Part shown: positions 36,080 to 37,108 of the stretch, piece by piece
How the letters are laid out: the number at the start of each line of letters is the position of its first letter
Position numbering within the stretch: the first letter of the stretch is position 1
Notes under the pieces: model-generated
Told to the model about the DNA's origin: nothing
The model's input: the letters and a program-made list of their open reading frames with translations, nothing else
Database searches by the model: none
Origin: Planctomycetota bacterium
Lineage (GTDB): Bacteria > Planctomycetota > UBA1135 > GCA-002686595
DNA: 64,000 nt
NCBI GenBank assembly: GCA_016779205.1
Contig: JADHOC010000016.1
Coordinates: 1-64,000, forward strand
Direction: 5' to 3'
Program-made: the position numbers and the translations under genes

Positions 36080-37108
36080 CTATCGGTCGCGCCGGCGCCG
36101 GGGCCCGTCGCGGCGTCCGCCCTCTTCGCCGCGCCGCCGTGGCCCGTGGGAGTCCGTCACGGGGATCGCGGTCTCCCAGCGGATGCCGCGCTTGCGGGCC
36201 TCGCGGATGTGATCGTCGTGGTCCCTCTCGGCGGCCTCGAAGGCCTTCACGCCCGACGCCAGGGTCGCGGCGAGCTCTGGAGTGGTCGAGGTGAGGCTGC
36301 GCGTGGCGAGCACGTCTCCACCGAGGCCGTGGGGGTCCGGCTGGACCACCGTGATCCCCTCCCCGGGGGCGAGACCCTCGAAGGCCTCCTTCGACTCGAG
36401 CACGACGAAGTGGAAGCGGCCCACCCACTCCTCTGTCCAGGCGAGCTTGGCCACGGCCGCGGTCAGGCGCGTCCGGTCGGCGGGCTTGTCCGCGCGCAGC
36501 ACGATCAGGGGTCGCATGTCGGCAGCGGCCACGTTGAGGGACAGCCGCAGGTCGCGGAGCGTGGGCAGGCCCTCGATGGGGCGGGCCTTCGGCGCGTACC
36601 GGGCGCTGATGCGGGTCAAGGCCCCCTGGAACTCCTCCGTGGAGCCGTAGGTCATGGACGGGGACCTGGATCCGCGGGTGAGCTTCTTGCCGTCGGGGTC
36701 CAGCAGCGCGAAGGAGGTGTTCTCGAGGCCGCCGCGACCGGCGAAGACGTAGGAGAGGACCTTGGCCTCGGCCGCGTCCTCGTAGGTCTGCGGTCGGACG
36801 CAGACGAACTCGCGTGAGGCGGCGACGATGGTTGGGTCAGACAGGACACTCCTGTCGGTGTGCTGATAGCCAGGTCACCAGACCCCGGGGACCTCGTGAC
36901 ACTGGGGAGCGGCCGACATGAAGAGGATCGGCCGCTGCGTCCGCTTCGCCTCAGCGAGGGCGCCCTCCCAGGTGCCGAACCAGGCGATGCCGGGCTCGGT
37001 GGGGGGGACATGGGTCGCGAGCGGGCCCTTGGGGCCCTGGGGCATGGGGGCCGCTGCCGCGGCGACCGGTGCGAGGGTCAGGGCGAGGGCCAGGAGCGGG
37101 GTCTTCAT
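36080..37108 (-). CDS. candidate thioredoxin-like selenoprotein (UGA at codon 78)
   Basis: One continuous frame of 342 codons interrupted by a single UGA at 36875-36877. A signal peptide (1-20) is followed by a thioredoxin-like start (IAWFGTWEGALAEAKRTQRPILFMSAAPQCHEVPGVW), the UGA as residue 78, then PGYQHTDRSVLSDPTIVAASREFVCVRP and a second domain ending in an Arg-rich tail. Hydrophobic pattern and codon choice continue unchanged for 264 codons after the UGA. A hairpin with a G-starting loop lies 18 bases after it. I read the UGA as selenocysteine, with Cys70 as the likely redox partner. A pseudogene with one premature stop is the alternative. It lies 136 bases downstream of the mutase operon in the same direction; the ATG at 37108 is chosen for the signal peptide and has no clear Shine-Dalgarno. 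Confidence 0.7.
36840..36856 (-). promoter_or_regulatory. candidate bacterial SECIS hairpin
   Basis: On the reverse strand GACAGGA-GUG-UCCUGUC forms a perfect 7-bp stem with a 3-base loop beginning with G. There are 18 bases between the UGA and the stem, and 25 between the UGA and the loop. That falls within the spacing and loop rule known for bacterial SECIS elements (loop about 16-37 bases from the UGA, a G among its first two bases). Confidence 0.6.
36875..36877 (-). other. in-frame UGA codon, candidate Sec78
   Basis: TGA on the reverse strand between the GVW and PGY residues of the thioredoxin-like protein. The frame is open on both sides: 77 codons before, 264 after. Confidence 0.65.

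Follow-up and report, generated by a model that had tools for sequence, protein, structure and literature searches.

The window, a 64,000-nucleotide stretch of a Planctomycetota contig, very probably encodes a secreted-looking, thioredoxin-like selenoprotein in which UGA at codon 78 would be decoded as selenocysteine (Sec) by way of a hairpin in the message; the family to which it belongs lies outside the NCBIfam models scanned. The first-pass annotation had placed Sec at residue 78 from the letters of this one locus. A conserved UGA, a covarying hairpin and the presence of Sec machinery in the genome now support that assignment.

The reverse-strand frame holds one internal stop only, a TGA directly after ...CHEVPGVW, and the next 264 codons contain none. 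Beginning 18 bases past the UGA is GACAGGA-GTG-TCCTGTC, with its loop 25 bases off. On re-reading the window, the frame, its single UGA and the 264 open codons that had been annotated all agree to the base, and the same is true of the perfect 7-bp hairpin, its GUG loop and the two distances. The features of the locus are collected in the table.

Features of the thioredoxin-like selenoprotein locus, in window coordinates
Feature	Position	Strand	Basis
Predicted selenoprotein CDS, ATG at 37108 to TAG at 36082-36080, 342 residues (UGA as Sec) plus TAG	36080..37108	-	homologues align over almost the full length
Signal-peptide-like N-terminus, about residues 1-21	37046..37108	-	inspection of the sequence; hydrophobic N-termini in most family members
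UGA read as Sec (predicted), residue 78	36875..36877	-	TGA in 94 of 95 distinct homologous sites, TGG in one
SECIS-like hairpin with a stem of 7 bp and its GUG loop at 36849-36847	36840..36856	-	covariation; codon conservation in excess at residues 86-90
Cys70 codon, likely redox partner of Sec78	36899..36901	-	Cys at 91 of 95 sites; aligned with the first CxxC Cys in one profile comparison
Trp77 codon, immediately before Sec	36878..36880	-	at least 90% Trp across 58 rows
Cys103 codon, FVCVR strand	36800..36802	-	invariant in 58 rows; in the wider set 91 of 95 Cys, two Asn, two uncovered
Thioredoxin-like domain 1 with Sec78, about residues 40-175	36584..36991	-	weak Thioredoxin_7 match, AlphaFold, Foldseek and profile alignment; limits read off the model
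Domain 2, alpha/beta, no CxxC, about residues 181-290; probable second thioredoxin-like fold	36239..36568	-	predicted secondary structure

How much does such an arrangement mean by itself? All TGAs in the window were inspected for a perfect stem, 7 bp or longer, enclosing a loop of 3-6 bases, 16-37 nt downstream, with G among the first two loop bases. Hairpins of this kind follow 6 of the 1291 TGA triplets. An open frame across a UGA is little evidence alone, because in this GC-rich window 53 TGAs are preceded by more than 60 and followed by more than 200 open codons; a SECIS-like hairpin is present at one of these 53, the UGA of residue 78. Frame and hairpin in the window alone are therefore only suggestive of Sec decoding, and it is the comparative evidence that decides.

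A scan of a genome collection gave 15 homologues, in all of which TGA recurs at this position and the frame continues open beyond it, two copies (L013 and L016) being ended by the end of the contig. A profile of 15 rows (A1) was searched against 392 genomes of the phylum and a profile of 58 rows (A3) against 154 genomes of the class, a set that overlaps the first. At E ≤1e-25 the A1 search returned 59 matches. The Sec column is spanned by 55, every one reported with an internal TGA, and the four matches without a stop (G052 93-327, G332, G253 and G186:C1) all lie outside it. The A3 search provided 55 matches spanning the column at E ≤1e-20, and the A3 relatives (n = 57) share 32-94% identity with the window protein. 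Of 120 loci submitted to the codon reading, 111 span the Sec column at E 1e-10 or better and comprise 110 TGA and one TGG; the other nine, the fragment L088 and the distant matches L090-L097, fail to reach that E-value. Removal of identical contexts leaves 95 distinct sites, 94 with TGA and one with TGG. In complete copies the frame after the UGA stays open and conserved for approximately 250 residues. The TGG copy (L122) is a degraded fragment in which similarity to the family stops about 20 codons past the TGG.

No Cys orthologue occurs among the 111 loci that span the Sec column, nor is a Cys version of the family found across the 17 family-level groups within Planctomycetota that contain the strong matches. 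In both profiles the Sec column is written as Cys, so that Cys orthologues were not disfavoured in the searches. This Sec-only pattern holds for the 392 and 154 sampled genomes, which overlap, and one genome-contig scan. A search of plasmids with the family gave no match. A lone contig labelled Kiritimatiellia (L016) represents either a real occurrence or a binning error. Two genomes of the window's own family carry a divergent subfamily (L123 and L124) that keeps the UGA and a new version of the hairpin, with Cys103 changed to Asn; in L124 Cys70 is also lost.

From the UGA onward 63 distinct sites align free of gaps, and RNAalifold places a 7-bp helix at columns 21-27/33-39 of this alignment. 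In this set of 63 sequences, 62 of them distinct, pairing reaches 94.9% of cells, as against 29-55% when the helix is slid, and the covariation score of 0.432, compared with 0.183 in shuffles, was reached by none of 500 shuffles. With 93 distinct sequences 94.8% of cells are paired; sliding gives 32-56% and shuffling a mean of 80% and a maximum of 83%. Two-sided changes are present in all seven pairs and amount to 79 cells, where 1000 shuffles give a mean of 16.7 and a maximum of 26, and sliding a maximum of 27. The hairpin that had been proposed at the window locus is conserved in homologues with strong covariation and, judged from these alignments, is maintained through compensatory changes.

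All six core pairs form in 78 of the 93 sequences and at least five in 85. The remaining eight members (L039, which is the L015 site, L048, L057, L063, L152, L153, L154 and L167) lack the standard hairpin and have either an altered SECIS or are exceptions. These eight keep the UGA, some with what by eye is a shifted or bulged stem. In the window gene the outermost of the seven family pairs is a C-U mismatch, and the perfect stem is made up of the inner six pairs and an A-U pair that closes the GUG loop. The family loop has G at the second of five bases in 80 of 93 sequences and GU at positions 2-3 in 78 of 93, the commonest versions being AGUUU, AGUUA and AGUGU.

The stem persists while the encoded protein varies (DRSFLS, DQSLWS, EESFFS, ARSYLA in L164 and the divergent L123). 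The Ser87 codon is AGT in all 47 Ser-bearing members among 58, an observed identity of 1.00 against 0.19 expected (z 7.7), and residues 85-90 form the most codon-constrained six-residue stretch of the gene. This choice of codons confirms that the constraint acts on the RNA. The paired changes of stem and protein in DRSFLS, DQSLWS and EESFFS offer a clear natural record of a SECIS element constraining an amino-acid sequence. Folding energy was rejected as stand-alone evidence: within a 46-nt stretch the minimum-energy fold is the window hairpin (z -1.9), but for the 54 nt starting at the UGA it is another structure.

The window's own genome matches SelA at 456.8, SelB at 325.9 and SelD at 319.8 bits, the C-terminal part of SelB being matched separately, and it contains a tRNA-Sec with anticodon UCA that scores 70.5 bits, over the cut-off. 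All four components to which the first-pass annotation had tied its proposal are thus present. The SelD gene (L119, C23:108916-109860) likewise contains an in-frame TGA, within ACAGUAAKM, in agreement with the UxxK motif given for SelD in the accessible text of a selenoprotein inventory (PMC13188914), and a hairpin with a GUG loop follows. It resembles the window gene in this respect while encoding an unrelated protein, and provides an internal control suggesting that UGA can be Sec in this organism. A tRNA-Sec was found in 39 of 40 genomes with the family (40 chosen from 51 listed carriers) and in 34 of 40 without; being too common to discriminate, this co-occurrence is not counted as support.

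Might the UGA be an artefact, or a genuine stop? A lone in-frame stop in a single MAG does resemble a pseudogene or an error of sequencing or assembly, and a relative has one degraded copy, L122. However, the same UGA recurs at 94 of 95 distinct sites in many genomes, with some 250 open and conserved residues behind it in complete copies. Such conservation refutes this explanation, excluding the sequencing error that had been a concern at the outset, and we give it practically no weight. It is very improbable that the UGA truly terminates translation, leaving two separate proteins, or that it is a leaky stop at which Trp or some other ordinary residue is inserted. The one non-UGA case, being UGG, would suit the latter, but that copy loses its similarity to the family about 20 codons further on. 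In most distant relatives, moreover, a redox Cys occupies the UGA column, the hairpin that follows the UGA is conserved and covaries, and the genome has the Sec machinery. Several other members of the family terminate in TGA, which argues that UGA is not simply reassigned in the group. Decoding as Sec is the reading that we carry forward.

Most family members have hydrophobic N-termini, with starts set by script, and the protein is probably exported. The window protein matches Pfam Thioredoxin_7 (PF13899) at 20.3-20.6 bits, below the gathering score of 27, and 14 of the 15 A1 members match that model at E ≤1 (best 3.6e-5). An AlphaFold model derived with the 15 rows of A1 has a mean pLDDT of 79.5 and a pTM of 0.78. 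It comprises an alpha/beta domain, in which the loop at residues 65-85 is of low confidence, and a confidently predicted second domain (block pLDDT 88-97) that lacks CxxC and probably adopts a second thioredoxin-like fold. Domain-size matches in Foldseek include 3f9u, DsbD-gamma (2fwg) and AGR2 (9i3f); multi-domain PDI was also matched, with a large rmsd. Of all Foldseek matches only six reach E 0.001. A sequence search of the PDB gave nothing significant, the best E being 0.14.

AlphaFold and Foldseek indicate a thioredoxin fold. Sequence alignments place Sec78 on a Cys of the CxxC motif, and they differ on which. Profile alignment with 13 VPGUxxT proteins (hhalign probability 98.7) superimposes Sec78 on their Sec, the first residue of UxxC. 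Profile alignment with nine CxxC or CxxS relatives (probability 99.4) matches Cys70 to the first Cys and Sec78 to the second. Single alignments are similarly divided, with Sec on the first Cys for L125, L126, L127, L129, L132 and L134, and on the second for L092, L131 and L133. The disagreement arises because about eight residues are inserted at the motif. The initial reading, Sec78 as the first Cys of CxxC, was dropped as a settled matter, since the comparison with nine relatives gives the second. In 12 distant relatives free of stops the Sec column holds Cys in 10, Ala in L091 and Ile in L128. Position 78, where the first-pass annotation had looked to homologues for Cys or UGA, is accordingly UGA in 94 of 95 distinct sites of the family and Cys in 10 of these 12.

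Under either alignment Cys70 and Sec78 flank the inserted loop, and the family motif is C-x7-W-U. Cys occupies the Cys70 column in 91 of 95 sites, the others having Leu (L083), Asn (L084), Gly (L124) and Ser (L167); another Cys lies nearby in L083, L084 and L167. Cys70 and Sec78 are likely to be a redox pair, and the nine-relative comparison raises the odds of the pairing slightly, to a little above even. The partnership proposed for Cys70 from the outset is plausible in view of its conservation and its position on the first Cys of CxxC in one alignment.

A mechanism can be outlined on this basis. The hairpin starting 18 nt downstream would direct SelB and tRNA-Sec to decode UGA78 as Sec. Domain 1 would then carry a C-x7-U redox motif, with Trp right before Sec, in place of CxxC. 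Cys70 and Sec78 would form a selenenylsulfide/selenol-thiol pair able to reduce or exchange a disulfide, or to act on a peroxide-type substrate, outside the cytoplasm, and domain 2 may aid the binding of substrate or partner. What the comparisons support is a strongly selected Sec at the redox column of a thioredoxin domain, the protein being apparently exported; as to a Cys70-Sec78 pair acting on such a substrate outside the cytoplasm, we lean narrowly in favour. The chances are evenly divided on a broader proposal, that the family exists only with Sec, that in C-x7-U the thioredoxin active site is arranged in a new way and that the SECIS dictated the amino acids just downstream. With no Cys version found, and the UGA-less copy degraded, selenium chemistry would be a requirement of the reaction and not just a means of speeding it. 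As a small enzyme with a Sec-only pattern, the protein gives direct experimental access to the question of what Sec alone can do.

Gene neighbourhoods in the window and L002-L015 are shared only within two groups of close relatives, with no widely conserved neighbour that points to a substrate. In the window's genus the gene comes after what, by inspection, look like methylmalonyl-CoA mutase genes.

Does the protein belong to a selenoprotein family that is already described? None of the 58 members passes an NCBIfam selenoprotein cut-off, the best match having E 3.9e-5. That match is to VPGUxxT type 2 (NF041383), a family listed in the accessible part of the inventory (PMC13188914), and we consider it improbable that the window protein is merely a divergent member of it. 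The two have in common a Thioredoxin_7-type domain, a signal-like N-terminus, VPG ahead of Sec and an hhalign superposition of Sec on Sec, at a probability of 98.7 over the thioredoxin domain. However, the cut-off is 275 bits and the window protein reaches 18.1-18.3, and ordinary CxxC proteins resemble the window family no less closely, with a probability of 99.4. In NF041383 Sec directly follows VPG and Cys is at +3 (VPG-U-x-x-C), whereas the window family has VPG-V-W-U-P-G with Tyr or Lys at +3 (VPGVWU-PGY/K) and, unlike NF041383, a conserved Cys eight residues upstream of Sec. Cys versions of NF041383 exist (for example L100 and L108) but no Cys orthologue of the window family was found. 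Within NF041383 the second half of L105 matches PMSR and that of L099, only weakly, an MsrB/A model, whereas the window family gives no C-terminal PMSR match. A separate family is the assignment that we prefer.

The Trx7/PDZ family NF041199 is represented by 10.4 bits against a cut-off of 300, and weak similarity of the thioredoxin domain extends to 38 of the 58 members at E ≤1 (best 3.5e-4). Its motif, as printed in the accessible text of PMC13188914, is CxxU, compared with C-x7-U in the window family. Should the alignment with nine relatives be correct, C-x7-U would represent the NF041199 order, Cys then Sec, in expanded form. The fold of domain 1 is also common to ordinary CxxC relatives, such as L126 with TWCQKC, and to DsbD-gamma- or AGR2-like structures (2fwg, 3f9u, 9i3f). 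In the nine-relative alignment the window family differs from the CxxC proteins by five extra residues between the redox residues, the second of which is Sec; in the other alignment, against L126, Sec is the first redox residue and eight residues are inserted before it. By these comparisons the thioredoxin domain is distantly related both to VPGUxxT selenoproteins and to ordinary CxxC proteins.

Table 1 of the inventory, in its accessible text, gives 119 prokaryotic selenoprotein families or subfamilies, and neither C-x7-U nor WU is among the motifs printed in those 119 rows, several of which print no motif (PMC13188914). Neither motif nor family is named in the open-licence text consulted. 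The family could already sit among the supplementary selenoprotein candidates that PMC4807772 gives for two planctomycetes, or in a groundwater MAG study cited in PMC13188914. The deep-Sep method, according to the available portion of its description (PMC12013277), may miss selenoproteins without Cys homologues, a limit that bears on the window family because it has no close ones. What appears to be new here is a thioredoxin-like selenoprotein family, outside the NCBIfam models scanned, whose C-x7-U site is unusual and which has no close Cys version. It would add a widespread family to the 119 of the inventory, at least as that source's accessible part presents them (PMC13188914). Automatic annotation would probably truncate every copy at residue 77.

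Other UGA-interrupted frames were met in the course of this work. Five of the 13 VPGUxxT type 2 proteins over the cut-off (L099, L105, L106, L109 and L111) carry another TGA in frame within the C-terminal half (for example GMTUYWVGE), and in L105 this half matches PMSR. One Sec is given for the family in the accessible text of the inventory (PMC13188914); those with a second TGA are possible double selenoproteins. Thioredoxin-like frames with an in-frame TGA at or near the UxxC position are present in other genomes of the phylum (L090, L093, L094 and L098), and the three that were scanned, L090, L094 and L098, are below NCBIfam cut-offs. A further UGA-interrupted frame, with ACTUNNG or GCTUNNG, occurs in L095 (1010-2113, forward strand) and L097. 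The L095 frame matches no Pfam or NCBIfam model at E 0.001, and the pair is a candidate for a further selenoprotein family. By eye, a stem GACCAGAC...GTCTGGTC follows the UGA in L095.
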